A stretch of DNA of 64,000 nucleotides from Tricholoma matsutake (taxonomy: Eukaryota; Basidiomycota; Agaricomycetes; Agaricales; Tricholomataceae): the NCBI GenBank assembly GCA_026075535.2, contig AP026550.1:7626001-7690000 (forward strand), written 5' to 3'. Shown here in pieces: positions 31,164-43,032 of the stretch. A program made the translations under genes and the position numbers. Positions within the stretch are counted from its first letter, which is position 1, and each line of letters starts with the position of its first letter. The notes beneath the pieces are model-generated. The model did no database searches, was not told where the DNA came from, and saw only the letters and a list, made by a program, of their open reading frames with translations.

Positions 31164-31399
31164 TGTCACTGTGGACCCAGCATGGTAGCGATTTCAGCCA
31201 TCTAAGTGCCAAAACATGAATTTTCTAATTTAAATGGCTGAATTCATGGTGGATGAATTTGGGATGAATTTTCAGCCCATATATTTAAGCTGTTTAGGGT
31301 ATGGAATTCATGTGTATTATTTTACAAAATTTCCATATGTCAATGGGATGAAATTTCATTTCACAAAAGAATGAAAAGTGGGGGATGTTTTTAATTCAA

Positions 31400-31650
31400 C
31401 AGGAAGGTATGAACTTCATCTGAAAGACAGGATGTTTTTGTATGTGATTTTCTGACGTCTAGGGGATGTTTTTAATCTAGGGGGGGTATGAATATCATCC
31501 AAAAGATTTGATGTTTCAGCTTGTGATTTTCTGACTTCTAGGGTTAGTTTTCAATCCGAAAGAATATTAATTTCATCTGAAAGACAGGATGTTTCTGTAT
31601 GTGATTTTCTGACATCTAGGGGATTAGTGGGGGGTTTGTTTTTTCACAAC
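31400..31650. repeat. Subterminal 78-bp repeats at the left CACTA end
   Basis: Three imperfect copies start at 31418, 31496 and 31574, each with CATCTGAAAGACAGGATGT or a variant and GTGATTTTCTGAC.TCTAGGG. Subterminal repeats are usual transposase-binding regions in CACTA elements; binding here is inferred only. Confidence 0.75.
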
Positions 31651-32418
31651 TCTAAAGGATGTTTCCCAAGTCAGCTTTTCATACTTTAACTCTCTGTGTG
31701 TAGGGCCATTGTTGCTGTTAGCCATTCACCACTGCTGCCACCTGTCATCGCCATCTGCTAGCACCTGCTATACATGCCACAAGCAGTGGCTCATGGCAGT
31801 GGGGGTGGGTGCTGGGGTCATTGCCATTGTTGTCATTGCTGCTGATGACGCGCAGGCCATGAACACCATGAGAGTTTTCAGTTGTGATGGAGGATAGGAG
31901 AATATCAAGAACTTTGAGGTGGAAAATGGCAGATGGTGAACTGCGAGCAAGGTCAGCATGCCCCAGAAATAATGCAGAGATGCTGGACTCACAGCGGCGA
32001 TTTTGACACGGAATGCAGAAGCAAGAAACAAGCTTGTCTTACGAGTACAAGCCAACTATCAGCTTCACCACTCCTTGCCAGCCCAAACAAAATATCTAAC
32101 CCAACGTCAGTCAACCTTCATTCAAAATAGAACAAAATGGACCCTCACCCTCGCACATTCTACCTGACCAAATTGCCAGCGCCTCCTCATCACTTCTCCC
32201 ACCATCCTCTCCTCCCTCAGCCCATGTCACCATGCTTGCAACTTCACCTCATTGTTGAGCCTCTTCTTCTTCCACTCACTTGTTCCACTGCACAAGGCAC
32301 CCATTCTGAAACTATTTAAATGGCACTCTCATGACTCTCATGACATAACAGAAATTTAATTGCCTTCAGCTACAGCCTGTGATAGTATTCTACTTCTGTC
32401 AATAATGGACCACCTCCC
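31651..32418. other. Non-coding stretch of the CACTA element
   Basis: Frames are short and low in complexity (CTGCCA-rich). One 60-codon frame at 32137 (MDPHPRTFYLTKLPAPP) is Pro/His-rich and might be the 5' part of the next small gene; nothing firm. Confidence 0.35.
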
Positions 32419-32673
32419 ATGGTCCTTAATGCACCCAACTACACATTTTATCTGATTGAGATCAACAAATTCCATAGGCCCCAAGTCTTCATAGTAGTTG
32501 ATCCCACATCAATTAGTGGCTGGCTCCAAAATTTTGACCTGATTGATGGACACATAGATGAAAGAATTGGCCTCGATGTTATGTATAGGGGAGTGAGGGA
32601 TATCAACAATGACAAAGCAGAGGATTTGCCCAAAGAAATCTTGCAGATCAAACTCTGGTGTTCAACGTGGTAG
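32419..32673 (+). CDS. Small hypothetical protein in CACTA element
   Basis: An 84-codon frame with protein-like composition (EINKFHRPQVFIVVDPTSI, WLQNFDLIDGHIDERIGLD) that converges on the Tnp2 gene and overlaps its end by 12 bases. A possible 5' exon lies at 32137. No family recognised. It could be a fragment of a larger lost gene. Confidence 0.3.
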   Translation: MVLNAPNYTFYLIEINKFHRPQVFIVVDPTSISGWLQNFDLIDGHIDERIGLDVMYRGVRDINNDKAEDLPKEILQIKLWCSTW

Positions 32674-35600
32674 ATGAGCAAATTTGTCAATGGCGAGTTG
32701 ATACTGGAGGACGAGTAAGTCAATATGCACAAAATAGTGTAGTAGGAGGCTTACCTGGACAAATGACATATCTTGACTGTCAGATCTGAGTGGAACAAAG
32801 TCACGAGCATACATAACATCACCACCCTCCAGCTGGCGCACACGGCCATATTGGGCAAATTGAGTATTCTGGGGTATAAGCTCCCAAATTATTGATGCAG
32901 ACTTGTTAAAGCAAGTGGCTAGGGTGGCAATGAGCTTCATCCTCAGAGGAGTGGGGAGGGTTTCCACAGGTCCCTTGGGGGGAGTAAGAACATATAATGG
33001 GTCTAGCTCACTATGATAAGGGAGCAGGTTCATCAACATGACTAGAGACTTACATGAAGGCAACTTGACATCTGTATCATGATGGACAGGAGGTAAGAGA
33101 ATAAGTTGTTCATGCAAGCCATAGAGGAGGGTTATGTGCGTCAACTGTGCACGAGAGGTAACATACTTGTTGATGTTTGCATAGGGAAACTGTTGGCTCC
33201 TGATGTTACAGAGGATGTCGCCACAATGGCACTCCATCAGAAATGCCCAATAAGCCCAGACTAGACCCATAGCCCTGATACTCGGCACAATGTGAAGCAG
33301 TGCATGGACGGTGATGGGACAACAGGCTATGCGCAGCAGATCATTTTGGTAGTATAGACTGTTCATCTATCAGACAGCATCCTGCTGGCAACAAGAAACA
33401 CATACCATTCATACTTCTGTACCCAGCTCTGTAAACCTCTCTCAAGGTCATTAACCTGATCTTGAGTGATTTCGAATTCTAGGCAGTGTTAGCAGTCAAA
33501 CTAATTCCATGAAGTGCTTGTAGTACTGTGGATGCACAAATCGGCCTTTGAGGAGAGTAGGGGCGATGTATAATGTCCAGATTGAATGAGTTTCGGTGAT
33601 CATCTGCACCTTCTCTGATGCTATATTCGGAACCCTAGCACCAAATGCCGCAGGGATAGTTTTTCCTGCCTTCATGGTGGCCTCTCCAATAGCCTCCCAT
33701 ACCGTTGGTCCCAACACATAGCCTTTGTTGTCATGGGAAATATTTTTAAACTCTCCAGTCCAGAAGCAAATCAAGTTGGGAATGAGATTAGCCCATATCA
33801 GATGCATGAAATCATAAGGGAAGGACACAGGAAAAGAGAGGGAGCTTAAGGTGCTGAGCAGCGGTAAACCTTTGATGCCATACTTGGTTGCAAGGCCTTC
33901 ATAATCCACATTGGTTGACGCGTACTGGACTTCCTTTGCTTGCTCCATGAATGATGTTGATAGGTCCACTGTGCACTCTAAGCTCTGGGAACATCTCCAG
34001 AGGCATTGACACATTAAAACACATGCTCCCAACCCCTACAAACCCCGCAACACTGCTCCAAAACTACTTCGATTGACTTCAAACGATCTCGAACAACTTT
34101 GAACAACTTTGAACGATATTGCAGCACTTCAAACGCCTTTGGCCACTGTACACCTATCGCACCACCCTTCGGATACATGCAGCACACCTTGTAAGAGTTA
34201 GTGCATTGCATATCGAGCACCACCGGACACGAGGAGATACAACGACATGATTTTAGGACGCGATTGTGGCGCTTTGACACCTCGATGATATATTAGATCA
34301 ATGGGGACAGGTACCAGTGATAAATCATGCCTCTAGATGTTTCCCTTCTTATCTTTTTTCATTTATTCTATGATTTGCAAAGATTCTCTATTGTTTTATA
34401 TCTTGCCTCATGTATTCCTCATGTTTTATTTCCTTTTTAGTATCACTTCTCCCAAACATATATAGCCTTGTACTAGCTACTTAGAAGAACAGAATACATT
34501 GTCCTCTCACACCAATCATCTGATTTAAGAGCTATTCTCTTGAGTCCAAGCATCTCGACTTAGTCTTGAAACTCAGTGTTTTACACTGAATTTCCTCAAA
34601 CTCCTCGTACTAGCTTCTCGAAACTATCACATATTGTCTATCCTCTCTAGACACCTTTCTACGTCCTCATAGTCTATCCTCAGCCACCATCGAAGGCATC
34701 TTCATCTTCTATAAAGGCCTTCAAACTTTATCGCACCTCTTCGAACTTCATCGCACCACATCACACCTCTTCGCACACCCTTTAGAGTCGTTTTCATACT
34801 CCTGGTTTACAGCAGTGATATTTAGTACCACCTTGCAACCTTCCTCTAACTAGTGTTATACCATTTGAGCCCTTATTGTGGGTTTTGTTTGGGTTTCCTG
34901 GTCGAGTATCATCAACGTGTGATTTCATAGTGGAAGTGCACATGGGTCATATTGCTCCTGTGAGCCTGGGAAGCCATCGCAACACAAAGGAACATAGTGC
35001 GTTGTCACTCGCAAGGATGGAATGCGGACTCCTTTGATTGTACACATGTGGCATGGAGAGATTGCATTGTGGCCCTTCATGCGCATAATCATTGAGACAG
35101 CCGGTATATCGCCAAAGACAATGATCAGATATGCATGTAAGAGGAAGACAACCTTGGTGATCACATCAAAAGCAGAAACTTAATCTCGAGCTGCAGCAGT
35201 TCCTGGACTAGGGGCCATAAAAATGAATCAAAATTGCAGGGTTTCTTTGGTCCAGGAACCACTCTGATCGAGATAATGTTCCACTTGAGAAACTGCTCTT
35301 CAGGAGGGAGGTTATAATTGAATAGAATAATTGGTCATGCAGTCTTGGTACGGAGCTTGAAGGGGCCAAAGCCATCTGTGGATAACCCAAGTGCGATGTC
35401 CCAAGGATCAGAAAAGAACCACGTTGGGAGCTCTTCAGTTCAATTGTGATGAGGGTCTCTCGGAGTGAATGATAATGAGTGCCATCAAAAATATCGGTTA
35501 ATTTTGTTGGGTCAGCTTCATGTTTGGACCGGTACTGCATTTTCGTTGCATAGGAAGTACTTGCAGCATTGCACAGAGATGGGGAATAATGGAAAGATAC

Positions 35601-36526
35601 TCAAAGATTGCTTGTGGTGTTGTCCCATCGGCTTTATAGCGGTCAGTGTTGCACTTTGGGCATTTCTTGAGGGTTTTGTATGGGCCAGTATAGCAGATGC
35701 ATGAGGAGGGGCAACAGTAATAGTGCACAGGCTGGAAACCAGAGAGAAACTGAACACATTTCTCTGTATTCTTCAGGGAGTCCATTGGAAACTGAGGGAA
35801 AATGAAGCGAAGTTTGTTGAATGCTTTGTTGGTGAGGCGTTCCTCAAGTTTGAGGGCATAGGCAGAGGAGGGTCAGGTCACTCTCATCCAGGATATTGCC
35901 CTCTGTAAGTACGTCTGTCAGACAACAGTAGAGGTATAATTTGACGTGGACTCACCTAATCATGAGGCTTCCTTCAAGAAGCTTTCACCGAGGAGGTCCC
36001 ATACTGAGACCCCTTCCTGTCCCAACTCTGTGCTTGGCATTGCATATTCACCCTCGCCTTCCTGGAAGTCTTCATTGCTGTTGAAATCCTCATCCTCCAT
36101 GACCTCATCTTCTTGCATGACCTGATTCTCTTCTGTGACCTCGTCTTCCTCATCTTCCTCATCACTCTCCTTGACAACAAACTGCTGCACATGGTTATGC
36201 CCCCATCATTGTAAGCCAACTTGCTCAACACAATGGGCAATGTGATGGGAGCAGCGTAAGTTGGTCAAACCATACTCATCACCAAGGGGTATGGGGTCCT
36301 CCGCTAACAAAAGGGCTTGTCGAGCAGGAGCTCGGCGTCCAATGACCTGTATCTTTGGTGAAGGGTGAGATCATTTCTTTTGTCCAGTCTTCCTTATTGA
36401 GGGCTGGTTCTGTGCAAGGATACTCAACATCAAAAGTGAAGGACCTTGCCCTGCCTCATGACACCTTTCAGTCTTCTGGATGACCAACTTGCCACAATTA
36501 CATGCACAGAGATGCTTAGGGGCCAT
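32662..36526 (-). pseudogene. Tnp2-type CACTA transposase
   Basis: Likely start MAPKHLCACNCGKLVIQKT at 36526. An acidic region (EDEEDEVTEENQVMQEDEV) follows. The Tnp2 core starts with YYCCPSSCICYTGPYKTLKK and CPKCNTDRYKADGTTPQA (35785-35500), then DPTKLTDIFDGTHYHSL, HAYLIIVFGDIPAVSMIMR and MKGHNAISPCHMCTIKGVRI (35160-34925). After the solo LTR at 33958-34914 it resumes with FMEQAKEVQYAS, YGIKGLPLLS, FPYDFMHLIWANLIPNLI and FGARVPNIASE. The DUF4218-like tail (33366-32662) has CPITVHALLHIVPSIRAMG and VWAYWAFLMECHCGDIL. Introns and some frameshifts divide it. The enzyme binds the CACTA ends for excision. The LTR insertion kills this copy, so movement would need another source. Confidence 0.9.
33958..34914 (+). 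repeat. Solo gypsy LTR inside the Tnp2 gene (957 bp)
   Basis: It begins TGATAGGTCCACTGTGC and ends GGTCGAGTATCATCA. The flanks ATGT (33954-33957) and ACGT (34915-34918) fit a 4-bp duplication with one CpG transition. The transposase reading resumes on both sides. Confidence 0.87.
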
Positions 36527-36589
36527 GACTGAGGAGCAGATGTTAGTGGGCATGCTCATAGGGACACAGGGATCAGCACACCAGAGTAT

Positions 36590-36688
36590 ACCTCTCCACA
36601 CCCATTATCGTCCTCCTCGTTGTCAACTTGAGCCTTGATATCAATGAAACAGTGGAACACTGTGTGTTGTGCCTTCAGCAACGTCCCT
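36590..36688 (-). pseudogene. Diverged inverted copy of the Spt5-like 5' exon
   Basis: On the - strand, beyond the palindrome core, the sequence still resembles the first coding exon of the Spt5-like gene: GTTGCTGAAG, then GGCTCAAGTTGACAACGAGGAGGAC versus GGCTCAAGTGGGCAACAAGGAGGAC at 37322. It has stops and reads toward the Tnp2 gene. It shows that the inverted duplication once included the coding start of that gene. Confidence 0.6.
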
Positions 36689-37274
36689 AAGTTTCCTATC
36701 AGTGGATATCAGCATTTTGTATTGATTTTTATTGGATTCTTAGGCTTATTTTTTGTATTATCATTCATTTGGCATGTACTATGTATCTACTTTACTGACT
36801 AGCAAAATGAATTAAAAGGAACTTACTCAAGGGGGGCAATGAGGAGGATGGCGGACCAAAAAAAGTTGAAGGTGGTGGTTGGGATGAAAGCAAGAAAGCG
36901 TGTGAAACCTGGCAAACAAATGTTGATATTGTTTGGAATGTTCAGTCCTCGGCTATCCGGTTATGTCTTCTTACCCTAAGAAATAACCGGATAGCTGAGG
37001 ATTGAACATTCTGAACAACATCAACATTTGTTTGCCAGGTTTTGCATGCTTTCTTGCTTTCATCCCAACCACCACCTTCAACTTTTCTTGGTCCGCCGTC
37101 CTCCTCGTTGCCCACCTTGAGTAAGTTCCTTGTGATTCATTTTGCTAGTCAGTAAAGTAGATACATAGTACATGCCAAATGAATGATAATACAAGAAATA
37201 AGCCTAAGAATCCAATAAAAATCAATACAAAATGCTGATATCCACTCATAGGAAACTTAGGAATGTTGCTGAAG
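36673..37274. repeat. 602-bp palindrome between Tnp2 and the Spt5-like gene
   Basis: Arms 36673-36964 and 36983-37274 are nearly perfect reverse complements around an 18-base spacer. The innermost pairs are CTATCCGGTTAT and ATAACCGGATAG. The arms hold the upstream region of the Spt5-like gene, and outside them the two sides diverge. Confidence 0.92.
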
Positions 37275-39910
37275 CCATGAGGAACAATGTCCCAGATGCA
37301 GTCCACCATTTCCTCAACATTGAGGCTCAAGTGGGCAACAAGGAGGACAGTGATGGGTCTGGAGATGGACCTCCTGGTAAGTTGACTCCAGCACTCACTA
37401 CGAGTGCTGTTAATCTGTTTACATTCTAGACAACTTCATTGACGATCAGGTTGGACAACTGAAAGACACGCCAGGGCTCCTGGGGAGCAAGCTGCCTGAC
37501 CGAGGCAAGGAGGATCTGAATGACTTCTTGTTGGGAATCTTGGAATGGTCACATAACCTCAATGCACAGCGGCCAAGATATGATGACGATGTCGATTCCA
37601 ACGACTCAGACACCCCAGCTGCCATCACTTCACACATGCCAACTAATGCAGACTATCCATTACTGAGGGTTTGCTGCGCTGTGAGCCTCAATCATTACAA
37701 TTTTGTGATAGCCTACTGACTTATTATATCTAGCTAGGGAAGGAGAGCAATGCCGTAGCCTACCTGTTTAGGGTTGTGCAACCAGAACACAAGTTGCGGT
37801 CTGCATTCTCATGGGATTCAGTTCGCGGGTGGTTTTATATCAAAGCCTTCATGAACCCTGTGCTGTCTAAGCTGCTACATTCTAACCCACAACTTATTCA
37901 TCCACAAGAGGGTTTTGGGGCAATTGACATGGAAGAGTGGACTATGCTATTGGATATGGATGATGAAAGGTACCCCTCTGTTGGAGATTGGGTTACCATC
38001 TGCTGTGGGTTGTACAAAGGGGATGTAGGCTACATTCAGTCTGTCAAGAACTGGGGTCAAATCACCCTTCTTTTAGTTCCTTGCCTCCCTTCCCCTCCCA
38101 TGGTTGGTTCTTCTTCCGGGAAAAGGAAACAATCTGGTACCCATGCTGACCCCCACCTGTTTACCAAGGACATGGTGATGAACTTTGCAAGGAACCACGG
38201 CATCACACAATTCCAGAAAGGGGAGGACGATTTGTGGTGGACCATCTTGGGTCATAAGTTTGAGCATGCTCTCAAAGTTAGGACATTCCACCACCATTCA
38301 GTCTCGTCTACCTCTGTCTCCATGCCTAGTAGTACATTTTACGAGTTTAAAAAGGCCCCTCACCCAGACATCATGAATGTGACATTCCCTTGCCCTTCAG
38401 AATGGAAATTTTCTGAAGGTGAACGTGTGGTAGCCATTAAGCCCTCAGAAAAGTGAAGCATTATTAAAGCTGTGCATCCTCATTCAGTGGAGGTGGATCT
38501 TGAGGATGGCAAGGGCATAGCGAATGTCCCTTGGTCCAATTTGAGAAAGTATGTTGCTGTCGGTGACTTTGCTGAAGTGATAAGTGGAGCTCTCTGTGGA
38601 GAAAAAGGATGGGTAGTAGAAATTAGTGGTGATGAATTTGAAAGTGTTTGGATCGCTGAATGGTCCAAATGCCAAGAGATAAGTGGTGGCATAACAGCTG
38701 TTGGAAGGGGTGGCATACATGGCAGAGTGCTTCACAACATCCTAATGGTAAGGTACACGGCCAAACTTTTGCAACCAACCACTAATCAACCTTTACCAGG
38801 GACACCATGTCCATATAAATTGGGTCAAGGTTATCGACCTGCCACTCACATTTATGAAGCAACAGTCTACGTCAAGCAGTACATTAGCAGATTCACTCAT
38901 TGCCCACCCAACCTATCCATTCGCATCGGATCCATCAGAGGGCGTGCCATGGATCAAAATGGAAGTCGTTGTCTGCAAGGTCAAGTATCCAATGAAGGGT
39001 TATCATGCAATCGTCAAGGATATTCTGCCTCTGCAGGACAATTTAAGTGGCCTCAGAATAACCACTCAGTTCACCCACATTGACCCTGCCCATCCATTCA
39101 GAACTGAGGTTTTGGACTATGACGACATTGTGGAAGTATCGTATGTTACTCTAATTTCTGTTGGCGGGCATTGTGACTAATTTCCTTTGAGTTCCGGTCT
39201 CCACTTATACAATTTTGCCCCGTCTTTGAGTGACCTCTTCAAACCTCTTCTGAGACATCCTGTGAGGGCTCCAGCACCCCGGCAAACCCCAGCTGATGGT
39301 GGTAGTTGTACCCCCATGCTGAATTACATTTTCTCATTGCCCACTTGGAATCCATCATCATGGACTCCATGGACTCCCCTCCCTGATTTCCCAGAGATCA
39401 AGTTGGCTTCCTCTTCTCATCAGCTGCCTATCTCCCCACAGCAGCAACGTCCAGCACACCCTCTACTAGACTCACGACTTACTGGTGCAAAAATGAAGGT
39501 ATTGGTTATGGGTGGAGAACATAAAGATAAGGAAGTGGCTGTTACAATTATGCAAGTATCTGGGCAACTATCCATCTGGTTCTCGCACTACAAGACATCA
39601 GGATTCTTGCCTCCAGAACAGGTTTCTCCCAAGCACCCTCACCCGACATGCGACAATGGGCCACTTGTTGTGATTGACAGTGAGCACTGTGGCAAAAATG
39701 TTCACCGAATCCACCATCGATACGAAGATGGTCAACCAATTGTCATGGTGGCTGTTATCCATCGGATGGAGGAGTCTCTTGGAGGAATGCTTGGAGTTCA
39801 GTCCTGATGAACTGTGTGTTGGCCATGAGACAAAGGAGGAAAAACAATGGAACAATGGACTGATGTCTGGTCTTTGCAAGGAGGTGAGGAAGACACATGC
39901 AGATAAGTGA
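37252..39910 (+). pseudogene. Spt5-like NGN/KOW protein gene carried by the CACTA element
   Basis: Proposed exons: 37252-37376, 37430-37680, 37734-38747, 38800-39140 and 39192 to about 39910, with GT-AG introns of 51-53 nt whose phases fit. After an acidic start comes an NGN-like domain (YPLLRVCCA, AYLFRVVQPEHKLRSAFS, DSVRGWFYIKAFMN). A KOW motif follows (PSVGDWVTICCGLYKGDVGY). Later modules are PSEWKFSEGERVVAI, VAVGDFAEVISGALCGEKGW, VPWIKMEVVVCKVK and GYHAIVKDILPL. Spt5 is a transcription elongation factor that contacts RNA polymerase II; whether this relative acts there is unknown. The first exon may lie farther upstream in the palindrome. A TGA at 38454-38456 interrupts the frame where CGA would give Arg, and the last 45 residues (CLEFSPDELCVGHETKEEK) are in another frame from about 39770. 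Thus this copy is probably inactive. Confidence 0.8.
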
Positions 39911-39957
39911 TCAAGTTTTTACGAAGCATAGAATATTTAGATACTCTATAATTTATC

Positions 39958-40597
39958 CTATGTGCCTGTTATAATTACTTTCCACCGCTTATTCTGCCCA
40001 CCATTGTCATCTTTCTTTCTCTCATCGTCTTTCTTTCTCTCGTCCCCTTGCTTTCTGCCCCGCTTCTTTACTCGTTGGACATTCATGTTGAAGACCGGGT
40101 TCACTAGGTGGCTATTATCAATGTATATCTGGATTGTGATGTTCTCCTGTATTTCTGATGGTATGTTATCAAGTAAGTATCTTTGCATATCTTTTGTTCT
40201 GATGGTTGGGTACTGACATCTACATCCCCATTAGGGACTGGGCTGGCTTGTCTGGTATCTATGTGGAGTCTTCAGCTTCCATTTGCCTGCAGACAAACCA
40301 GTGCTTACCTGAGACATTGGAGACATCAGGATGGTCAACCCACACCCTATTCTCCAGTAGGCCAAGTTGGTTCTCCACCATATAACTTTCAAGCTCTGTG
40401 TCTGGTTCCATCAGACTTTCCTCAACATCGGAGGTGCCATCGCTGATGCTAATAATGCTCCCAACACGATGGTGAATAGCAGGGCAAATGTGGGGGGATT
40501 TCTGGTTTGTGGACATTCTATTGCGCTGTGGATTTCCTGACTTGTAACCTACTTTATATATTGCAGGTTTTGTTAGTCTACCCACGCGACCACCCAC
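39958..40597 (-). CDS. Hypothetical spliced gene, basic C-terminus, in CACTA element
   Basis: Exon-like frames on the - strand: 40597 down to about 40310 (LTKPAIYKVGYKSGNPQRN, HRVGSIISISDGTSDVEES) and about 40188 to 39958 (RYLLDNIPSEIQENITIQIY, VKKRGRKQGDERKKDDERKK). A donor GTAAGCAC at about 40310 and an acceptor in 40180-40225 could join them. The lysine-rich tail suggests a nuclear protein. It converges with the Spt5-like gene, with 47 bp between them. No family recognised. Confidence 0.4.
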
Positions 40598-40689
40598 ACC
40601 AAGTTGAAGATGCGGAATGCTAGCAATGTAACATCTCCCTGTGCATTTACATTATTTGCATCCGTTAGCTTCTGATACCATCAACTAAC

Positions 40690-41290
40690 ATTGTTTGCCC
40701 AAGGTCCAGCCTAGAGCAATGAGAGTCACCGCATACTTTGAGCCCAAATCCAGTCTAGCGAAATGCATCCCCTGAACATGTTAATTGCATCCCTGGCTTT
40801 GCGCCCACTCCCTTACCCAATGCCCAAGCTCTGGCCTAGAGCAATGAGAGTCACCATGTACTTTGAGCCCAAATCCAGTCTAGCAAAATGCATCTCCTGA
40901 ACGTGTTAATTGCATCCCTGGCTTTGCGCCCACTCCCTTACCCAATGCCCAAGCTCCAGCCTAGAGCAATGAGAGTTGCCGCATACTTTGAGCCCAAATC
41001 CAGTCTAGCAAAATGCATCTCCTGAACATGTTAATTGCATCCCTGGCTTTGTGCCCACTCCCTTACCCAATGCCCAAGCTCTGGCCCCAAGCAATGAGCA
41101 CAATTTCCACCCATATGTTAAGTCTAGTCTATAGAAATTCATTGCCCTGAATGTGTTAATTGCATCCCTGTCTTTGCAGTGCCTCCTGCTCCCAACACAC
41201 AAGCTCTGGCCTTGAGCAATGAGCTGCTGCATACGTTAAGTCCAGTCTACATGAAATGTGTCCCCCTGAATGCGTTGATCACATCCTGTC
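40690..41290. repeat. Satellite, five 125-bp units
   Basis: The phrase CTAGAGCAAT or its variants recurs at 40711, 40836, 40961, 41086 and 41211, exactly 125 bp apart. Units 1-3 are nearly identical; units 4 and 5 are more diverged. Each contains GTTAATTGCATCCCTGGCTT and CCCAATGCCCAAGCTC. Confidence 0.93.
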
Positions 41291-41469
41291 ATTATTTCCA
41301 GGAACATTCAAGTTGTCCTCTGCGCAAAATGTGGTCCTCAACTTCTAGTTTTTCTGACCCTTGCACCAGAAGACTTATCTTGTGGTTTGCCTCTGCAGTG
41401 CATAGACTATACACGGATCTTATCCTTTGTTGAGTCCTTAAGAGCATGTTGTTACCTACCAATCCTCAT

Positions 41470-42300
41470 GGTGAAAACTTCAGTGTCTAAGAAATCCAAG
41501 CAAGGTGGTAAGGTGAAGTCAGCATTGACCTCTCTTGCAAAGAAAGTGGGAGGTTAGTGTTTCACTATTTTGCATTGAGATGTTATCGCTTACTGTGCTA
41601 CACTTGACTAGGGACAGCAGCAAAAACCTTGGAGGCTCAGTTGAAGGAACTAAAGGGTGCAGTCACCATTTTTCTCCTTCATACATTCCTGACAACCATC
41701 ATCAGCTGAGAACGATGTCTTGCGCAAGGCTGCAGCTGCTAAAGAAAACACTGCGATGATGGTACCATGGCCACCCAGAGGAAGTGGCATCGCCGGTAAC
41801 AGATTCAACTTACAAACCGCAATGCGCCTTGAGGATGATACTGATTTGTACACTGCCCTTCACATAAGTTGATCCCTTGTGCACATAGCCTTTCTGAGGA
41901 TTAGTAGTGTTGTGTCCAGGACTTAACCACCACAGCCGGGCTTGACTGTTCTGTTACATGGCACTGCCAACCAAAGCCGGTCGTTGCCAAAATCATTGCA
42001 ATGGTACGTTCTTATCTGCTTTCTTACCTCATTCTTAGATGGATCTCCTAGGCTTGAGAGCGCCACCACTACTTCAAGCATTTCCTGCACAGTTGGGTGG
42101 TTGAAGAATTTATCAAGTCCAGTCTGAAGAACAAGTGTGCCTATGCCCATAAATGTGGATATTTTGCTGTAATGACAAACTTGGATGATGTAGTGGATGA
42201 GGATGAGAAAGATAGGGACAACACAGAGGATACAGACAATGCGGAGGACAATGCGGGGGACAATGCGGGGGATGCAGGGGATGTGGAGGATGCGGAGTAA
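41470..42300 (+). CDS. Hypothetical spliced coiled-coil protein in CACTA element
   Basis: The ATG at 41470 starts MVKTSVSKKSKQGGKVKSAL. An intron (about 41551-41611) is followed by AAKTLEAQLKELKGAV, then ENDVLRKAAAAKENTAMMV and NRFNLQTAMRLEDDTDLYT. A later exon (from about 42050) reads HSWVVEEFIKSSLKNKCAY and HKCGYFAVMTNLDDVVDEDE, ending in an acidic repeat (about 42190-42300). Coiled coil, FNLQ.AM block and acidic tail resemble hypothetical proteins I remember from agaric genomes near transposons; this is memory, not a search. The middle exon borders (41870-42050) are uncertain and the gene may be damaged there. Confidence 0.5.
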
Positions 42301-42539
42301 GACATGGAGGATGAAGGTGACAAGGGCAAGGGACTCGAAGAGGATAGGGGTAGCTCAGATGATGATGCTTGAAATGTGATCATGCTCTGTATGTATGGCC
42401 TGAATTTTGGCCAATAACAAATGATTTCCAATTGGGGGGACCACTACCCATAACAGTTGAAAAGTCACTGCTAGCAGTATGAAACCTGTTGATAAAACTA
42501 CTACATAAAGTGGATGAATTCTTCCACTCTCAAAGAACC

Positions 42540-42975
42540 TGGAAAGTTGATGAGATTCAACCTGGGTAGAGGTTGTTATTCTTGCCCATATAAAGATGAA
42601 AACAACCCATGGGATGGTATGAATTAGGACAAATTCTGTAAGGAATTCATCCCTTTGACACCCTTAAATGGGGGGGGGGGGGAAATTCCTTCTTTCATTC
42701 CCCTTACAGTTGATGAAATTCAGCCCATGTAGAGGAGTGTTATTTTTGCCCATATAAAGATGAAAACCATCCCATGGGATGAATTTGGTGTAGGATGAAC
42801 TGGGGACAAAATTCAGGAGGTTTTCATCCCATTGACTCATCCCTTGCATATAGAAAAAAACCTCCTTTTTCACTCCTCTTAGGGGTAGATTTTCAGTCCA
42901 ACTCCTGATGAAACTTATTCCATTCTGGGGTTTATCAATACATGAAAACTATACCATAAATATATCAATTTACAC
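42540..42975. repeat. Subterminal repeats at the right CACTA end
   Basis: Two copies 163 bp apart (42546 and 42709) share GTTGATGA.ATTCA.CC and GCCCATATAAAGATGAAAAC. A run of 14 G lies at 42668. TCAATGGGATGAAA appears in inverse form relative to the left end (about 31338). Confidence 0.75.
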
Positions 42976-43032
42976 TATTTAAAGGTGTGAAATGTGGGAT
43001 GGGTTTCCTACTCTGCAGGCCCCATAGTGTGT

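Follow-up and report, generated by a model that had tools for sequence, protein, structure and literature searches.

A Tricholoma matsutake CACTA/EnSpm transposon family carries a divergent Spt5 homologue that may serve it as a private elongation factor

The window analyzed here is a 64,000-nucleotide stretch of the Tricholoma matsutake genome (assembly GCA_026075535.2, contig AP026550.1, positions 7,626,001 to 7,690,000 of the forward strand), and it contains a CACTA/EnSpm DNA transposon whose genes include a homologue of the elongation factor Spt5 (Table 1, in window positions). The element starts with CACTGTGG and ends with CCATAGTG, inverted termini of the CACT(A/G) type that are flanked by TGT on both sides. 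Joining the flanks with one TGT produced a minus-strand open reading frame (ORF) of 156 amino acids across the site, and retaining both TGT produced one of 157 amino acids. This restoration supports the limits without proving them, because any cut offset by a multiple of three also preserves the frame. The interrupted ORF matched DUF659 below threshold (E 0.02, 15 bits vs a cut-off of 34.7), and from this match and our own reading it is a putative hAT transposase. Repeats found by self-comparison alone lie close to both element ends. The Tnp2 transposase domain (PF02992) scored 48.9 bits in the window's own broken Tnp2 fragment (cut-off 28.6) and 76.7 and 81.2 bits in two sister copies. The termini and Tnp2 confirm that the interval is one CACTA/EnSpm element. 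An earlier note, made from the letters of the window, had proposed a single CACTA unit with a Tnp2 transposase from the inverted ends, the TGT duplication and the reopened ORF, and each of these was borne out.

The available text of PMC12730594 describes fungal CACTA/EnSpm elements with the same 5'-CAC...GTG-3' termini, 3-bp duplications, Tnp2 (PF02992) and subterminal repeats; their transposases have DDE catalytic residues with C(2)C and H(3-4)H motifs. The matsutake element differs from these in that it regularly holds an Spt5 homologue and two small genes, whereas the cargo described in that text is TET/JBP, with Spt5, KOW and NusG nowhere named. Membership of Plavaka was rejected, with termini that are CACTG..CAGTG-like and not the TGT..ACA of PlavakaA or the CATCA..TGATG of PlavakaB given in the same text.

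The genome (161,040,721 bases, 13 contigs) was searched for copies, and ten others were fetched for comparison. The element ends gave at least 40 left and at least 41 right matches, forming 17 left-right pairs within 60 kb at spacings of 7.1 to 53.5 kb. Both ends were present in nine of the ten fetched copies, the right end of the tenth (C10b) being absent from the stretch fetched, and a matching 3-bp duplication flanked seven of these nine (all except C13a and C8). Locus lists were compiled by hand from the search results, and fragments of single genes were merged by hand. The Spt5-like gene, on the strand of the end pair, and the basic-tail gene, on the opposite strand, lie inside 15 of the 17 end pairs, and the FNLQ-block gene lies inside 16. 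These are the three non-transposase genes that the earlier note had described, and they recur together between matched ends in 15 of the 17 pairs. Across the genome, the basic-tail gene gave 31 matches, some of them pieces of one gene, and a 55-amino-acid piece of the FNLQ-block gene gave 75.

The two remaining end pairs differ from each other. In C5b (C5:1427284-1439600), the FNLQ-block gene is kept, the Spt5-like and basic-tail genes are gone, and the greater part of the middle is absent or has been replaced. L067 (C12:2664633-2671772, minus strand) is 7,140 bp long, has ends that are 84% and 90% similar and a GAG duplication, and lacks the Spt5-like, basic-tail, FNLQ-block and Tnp2 genes. 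The former looks like a product of decay and the latter like a non-autonomous derivative. Same-ended copies without cargo, which the earlier note had counted against its reading, therefore exist, but 15 of the 17 pairs retain the cargo. These results show that the family has a standard gene set in T. matsutake, with Tnp2 pointing leftward, the Spt5 homologue pointing rightward, the basic-tail gene and the FNLQ-block gene. The Pfam scan, which covered part of the element ORFs, found no TET/JBP, Spt4 or other known domain among those scanned. The ORFs of L067 are hAT-like by eye, yet gave no Pfam match. The equal scores of nine right-end matches (339 bits) suggest that L067-type derivatives arose in a recent burst.

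Table 1. Features of the element and its flanks in the window
Feature	Position	Strand	Description
Whole CACTA/EnSpm element	31167..43029		11,863 bp; set by ends and TGT duplication; end pair occurs 17 times in the genome, window copy counted
Target-site duplication TGT, left	31164..31166		read from sequence
Target-site duplication TGT, right	43030..43032		read from sequence
Left terminal inverted repeat	31167..31188	+	16 of 22 positions agree with the right end, counted from the letters
Right terminal inverted repeat	43008..43029	-	read from sequence
Left subterminal direct repeats	31381..31628		60 bp at 93%; 170 bp at 75%; self-comparison
Tnp2 transposase gene (PF02992)	32371..36577	-	spliced; broken in the window copy; limits inferred by comparison with open stretches in sister copy C3
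Insertion private to the window copy, inside Tnp2	33955..34914 (about)		missing in 10 of 10 fetched copies
Inverted repeat	36593..37365		87% (787 aligned columns); set between the Spt5-like gene and the divergent Tnp2, overlapping the 5' part of each
Spt5-like gene	37244..39910	+	inferred introns 37377-37429, 37681-37733, 39141-39191; TGA at 38454-38456; frame lost near 39790
Basic-tail gene	39958..40519	-	two exons inferred; long exon without Pfam match
Tandem repeats of about 125 bp	40696..41293		self-comparison; between the basic-tail and FNLQ-block genes; copy number differs among element copies
FNLQ-block gene	41468..42372	+	lysine-rich start, acidic end, several exons inferred
Right subterminal direct repeats	42545..42781		74 bp at 86%, two copies; self-comparison

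The Spt5-like protein shares its domain order with cellular Spt5, the large subunit of DSIF: an NGN domain, a KOW1-linker, KOW2/3 and a later KOW. Its profile matched Spt5 chains with an E value of 2e-26. The alignment to cellular Spt5 extends through KOW2/3, and the later KOW was recognized by predicted fold. In P0048, an annotated partial protein of the T. matsutake family, NGN scored 22.6 bits against a cut-off of 22.4. Among 27 aligned relatives, a KOW motif was found at E ≤ 0.01 in 23 and NGN in six. The predicted NGN fold fits the NGN of Spt5 and bacterial NusG equally well, and KOW1-Linker1, a domain of eukaryotic Spt5, is present. The splice at the second inferred intron (37681-37733) is consistent with the annotated proteins P0048 and P0049. 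Ribosomal KOW proteins and Kin17 were rejected as fold relatives, their likeness being confined to a single KOW and ranked under Spt5. On these profile and fold matches, the element protein is almost certainly a genuine Spt5 homologue, in agreement with the NGN and KOW modules of Spt5 type that had been read in the window at the outset.

Cellular Spt5 and the element protein differ in other respects. The latter is only about 26% identical to the host's own Spt5, is multicopy and mobile, and continues into a C-terminal part with no counterpart seen in cellular Spt5. No C-terminal repeat region was seen by eye in a 246-amino-acid C-terminal reading, to which no dedicated repeat search was applied. 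This part matched eight of nine Armillaria/Desarmillaria-type proteins at E ≤ 0.002 and the ninth, P0065, at 0.54. Because eight of the nine match, the unusual C-terminus is one that the Armillaria relatives share.

Three protein searches gave 30, 59 and 11 relatives among the matches listed, many of them on JGI or ENA contigs. The named relatives among these matches come from T. matsutake, Armillaria and Desarmillaria, and the nearest organism-named proteins to the Spt5-like query come from T. matsutake. The UniRef names of P0061-P0064 and P0068 start with 'Chromatin elongation', which we completed as 'factor SPT5'. The Armillaria and Desarmillaria proteins resemble the element protein in their acidic start, NGN, KOWs and similar C-terminal part, and they are open over their full length (504-1112 amino acids). 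They differ in being known here as protein sequences. Two Spt5-like proteins of Armillaria novae-zelandiae (P0065 and P0066), about 1,100 amino acids long, have long extra C-terminal parts without Pfam match. A search of IMG/VR contigs for relatives with other neighbours gave 14 pattern matches, and none of them proved to be a relative.

A tree of 24 rows placed the element proteins apart from the Spt5s of the host and of yeasts. The three cellular rows, namely the host protein and the chains 8qsz and 5xon, which we take to be fission yeast and Komagataella Spt5, split off at 100/100, with the cellular side consisting of these three rows only. Fifteen element-type proteins grouped at only 86/79; of these, L018 was seen in its genome setting, and similarity was the basis for including the remaining 14, which come from databases. 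Six Armillaria proteins grouped at 100/99, and the program warned of possible attraction between the long Armillaria branches and the long cellular ones. As one alternative, the earlier note had allowed that the genes are captured host copies. Any recent capture was rejected, because the host Spt5 has so low an identity to the element protein and clusters with the yeast Spt5s. Identity and tree position together show that the Spt5 homologue belongs to an old lineage that diverges fast and is separate from the Spt5 of the host.

A second family extends the association further back. Its Spt5-like loci are 39-42% identical to that of the window over most of a 240-amino-acid query, and the adjoining Tnp2 genes are 66-77% identical to the window-type Tnp2. 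The Spt5-like gene therefore changes faster than Tnp2, given about 40% vs 66-77% identity between the families. Tnp2 was found within 10 kb of 22 of the 34 close and 11 of the 21 mid Spt5-like loci, on the opposite strand in all 33 cases. In 500 random placements, with approximate lengths for contigs C6 and C9, the means were 0.72 (close) and 0.45 (mid), and the highest counts were 5 and 3, respectively. Of the 21 mid loci, 13 are followed within 12 kb by the FNLQ-block gene in the same orientation. Since the diverged second family has it too, the order of divergent Tnp2 and Spt5-like genes followed by FNLQ is older than the family split. Non-independence among the copies of a family reduces the basis of the co-occurrence to two families and two far loci.

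This order also bears on whether the Spt5-like gene could have come from another element that was inserted once into a CACTA element and then co-amplified. The window is rich in nested insertions, which would suit such an origin. However, the equal gene order in the far-diverged second family speaks against it, as does the self-comparison, which reveals no separate ends around the gene except the inverted repeat. We regard a nesting artefact as hardly credible.

Two sets of loci limit the association of the Spt5-like gene with Tnp2. The first is a third set of 24 'far' Spt5-like loci (e.g., C11:8793261, C6:1929610, C4:1329933 and C12:741815), of which only two have a Tnp2, a diverged one, within 10 kb (0.49 expected). 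Not every genomic Spt5-like gene is thus shown to be transposon-borne. Among the matches listed, with part of the candidates scored, no Plavaka (PF18759) or KDZ (PF18758) transposase was seen by eye beside these 24 loci. At C1:2953281 there is a KDZ match at a distance of 7 kb and a nearer Tnp2. The second set is a clade of Tnp2 genes with about 67-70% identity to the query; none of 12 loci picked from it by hand has a listed Spt5-like match within 10 kb. The FNLQ-block gene is on the expected side within 30 kb in nine of the same 12. At C1:15745701 a weak Spt5-like match lies 17 kb off on the other side, and the single 1.3-kb mid-element sample taken from this clade (C12:2658000) gave no profile match. 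The spacing from Tnp2 to FNLQ is 7.1-7.5 kb in five loci of the clade (among them C1:14784373, C12:2654565, C2:6336071 and C11:7899307), and another thing may fill the place where no Spt5-like gene was detected. Because of this clade, we consider the Spt5-like gene to be accessory, kept in some Tnp2 lineages and lost, replaced or unseen in another.

The pace of divergence raises the possibility of a role in transposition itself. Plant CACTA elements have a second protein besides the transposase. By analogy with TnpA of Spm, which is mentioned in the available text of PMC10398659, the KOW surfaces could bind the ends or the subterminal repeats, with the role in transcription lost. Subterminal repeats do exist here, and fast divergence (about 40% identity for the Spt5-like protein vs 66-77% for Tnp2) would suit a DNA-binding partner of family-specific ends. 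Nevertheless, the polymerase-docking NGN is kept in sequence and in predicted fold, which a pure end binder would not need, and one Tnp2 clade apparently manages without the Spt5-like gene. A transposition accessory is therefore an unlikely account of the protein.

One correction to the earlier note is that the copy in the window is damaged. Its Tnp2 is split by the private insertion of about 960 bp, which leaves the frame in pieces, and its Spt5-like frame is interrupted by a TGA and lost near the 3' end. Judging from these frames, the window copy is a dead element, a fossil. Most Spt5-like copies in the T. matsutake genome are also broken.

Selection on the Spt5-like gene was assessed from the ratio of nonsynonymous to synonymous substitution rates (dN/dS). 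Against copy L018, dN/dS was 0.40 for L046 and 0.45 for L043, and after removal of CpG codons it was 0.41 (p 1.3e-6) and 0.44 (p 0.006), respectively. Within the close family, values ranged from 0.29 to 0.63, or from 0.36 to 0.93 with CpG codons removed, a spread to be expected if copies drift once they have inserted. As far as codon comparisons can tell, these ratios show purifying selection on the Spt5 homologue between subfamilies. They have to be set against the idea of a passenger, a host gene copy acquired long ago and carried without use. The broken state of most copies, that of the window included, and the two of 17 end pairs without the gene would fit a passenger. Conversely, dN/dS is about 0.4 between subfamilies, two families keep the gene at one place in one orientation, and Armillaria has relatives that are open over their full length. 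These points argue against the idea, and we hold a passenger to be very improbable.

The copies also carry a marked CpG decay. With polarity set by the majority base across 26 copies, 781 of the 1104 C:G to T:A changes fell at CpG, and at the 46 sites with a CpG majority, TpG or CpA stood in 776 of 1167 cells. This is the trace that 5-methylcytosine deamination or a process like repeat-induced point mutation would leave. In a 20-row set, 18 of the 20 stop codons go back to CGA, of which 17 now read TGA and one TAA. In the 26-row set, TGA itself is the majority codon at these positions (25 cells), so no direction was assigned to individual stops.

Between the divergent Tnp2 and Spt5-like genes, the inverted repeat was found at the corresponding place in eight of 11 copies compared (not in C13a, C5b and C5a). 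Both of its arms seem to encode a similar first-exon stretch. Since both genes start in the arms, they may have a common promoter. Spt5 ordinarily travels with RNA polymerase II (Pol II). NGN and KOW1-linker are the modules with which it rides the polymerase. Because the element protein combines them with a transposase neighbour, its own C-terminus and heavy CpG decay, it is most simply read as a private elongation or anti-silencing factor. We judge the chances to be evenly balanced that the Spt5-like protein serves the element genes as their private Pol II elongation factor. Under this scheme, the element NGN would dock on the Pol II clamp like that of cellular Spt5, leaving the KOW1-linker and the later KOWs to keep hold of upstream DNA, RNA or partners. 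The C-terminal part would stand in for the usual Spt5 tail and select partners or targets. Under host silencing, the genes of the element, which are long, intron-containing and methylated, would thereby be transcribed more processively, with the inverted repeat as a candidate recruitment site.

Specialized NusG/Spt5-family paralogues of the RfaH/ActX type, which are tied to mobile or acquired operons, offer a comparison, and according to the available text of PMC5995543 a non-template-strand hairpin recruits RfaH. These proteins are bacterial and small (NGN plus one KOW) and have no common ancestry with the element protein at the paralogue level, so the likeness would be one of role only. In its fullest form, the proposal is that an ancient and self-contained Spt5 lineage in mushroom CACTA elements, in divergent arrangement with the transposase gene, is the eukaryotic counterpart of RfaH/ActX, loaded at the inverted-repeat promoter to carry Pol II through methylated chromatin by which the transposase would otherwise be silenced; we put this forward tentatively, as a possibility somewhat short of an even chance.

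Element genes that may counter silencing of their own element include VANC of Arabidopsis VANDAL, TnpA of maize Spm and fungal TET/JBP (available texts of PMC10398659 and PMC12730594), although these are unrelated proteins and none is an elongation factor. The Spt5-like protein might instead be a decoy that competes with host Spt5 or with Spt5-linked silencing, weakening co-transcriptional or small-RNA silencing. Its profile matched plant RDM3, by its PDB name an Spt5 paralogue of RNA-directed DNA methylation, with an E value of 1.1e-12. The anti-silencing TET/JBP cargo of fungal transposons (PMC12730594) offers a parallel, and a meiosis-specific Spt5 paralogue of ciliates acts in a small-RNA pathway (PMC12203969, available text). 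The RDM3 match, however, reflects common Spt5 ancestry, as the cellular Spt5 of the host matches RDM3 better (3.3e-26), and no link from the Spt5-like protein to a silencing partner was found. These points make a decoy or antagonist distinctly unlikely.

Our survey of the open-access literature (subscription papers, Repbase notes and supplements lie outside its scope) found no paper describing an Spt5 or KOW gene in a transposon, and a word search for Spt5 and KOW found no mention in the main text of PMC12730594, PMC10799480 or PMC9674265. Our results suggest that a eukaryotic transposon can bring its own transcription-elongation factor. Bacterial NusG/Spt5-family paralogues serve mobile operons. 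If the private elongation factor is real, an RfaH-like solution would have evolved again in the Pol II world, by way of a DNA transposon with a conserved Spt5 lineage. It would account for a set of mushroom proteins that are multicopy and bear the name 'Chromatin elongation factor SPT5'. It would also provide a natural separation-of-function Spt5, with which the needs for NGN and KOW at chosen genes and in silenced chromatin could be probed.
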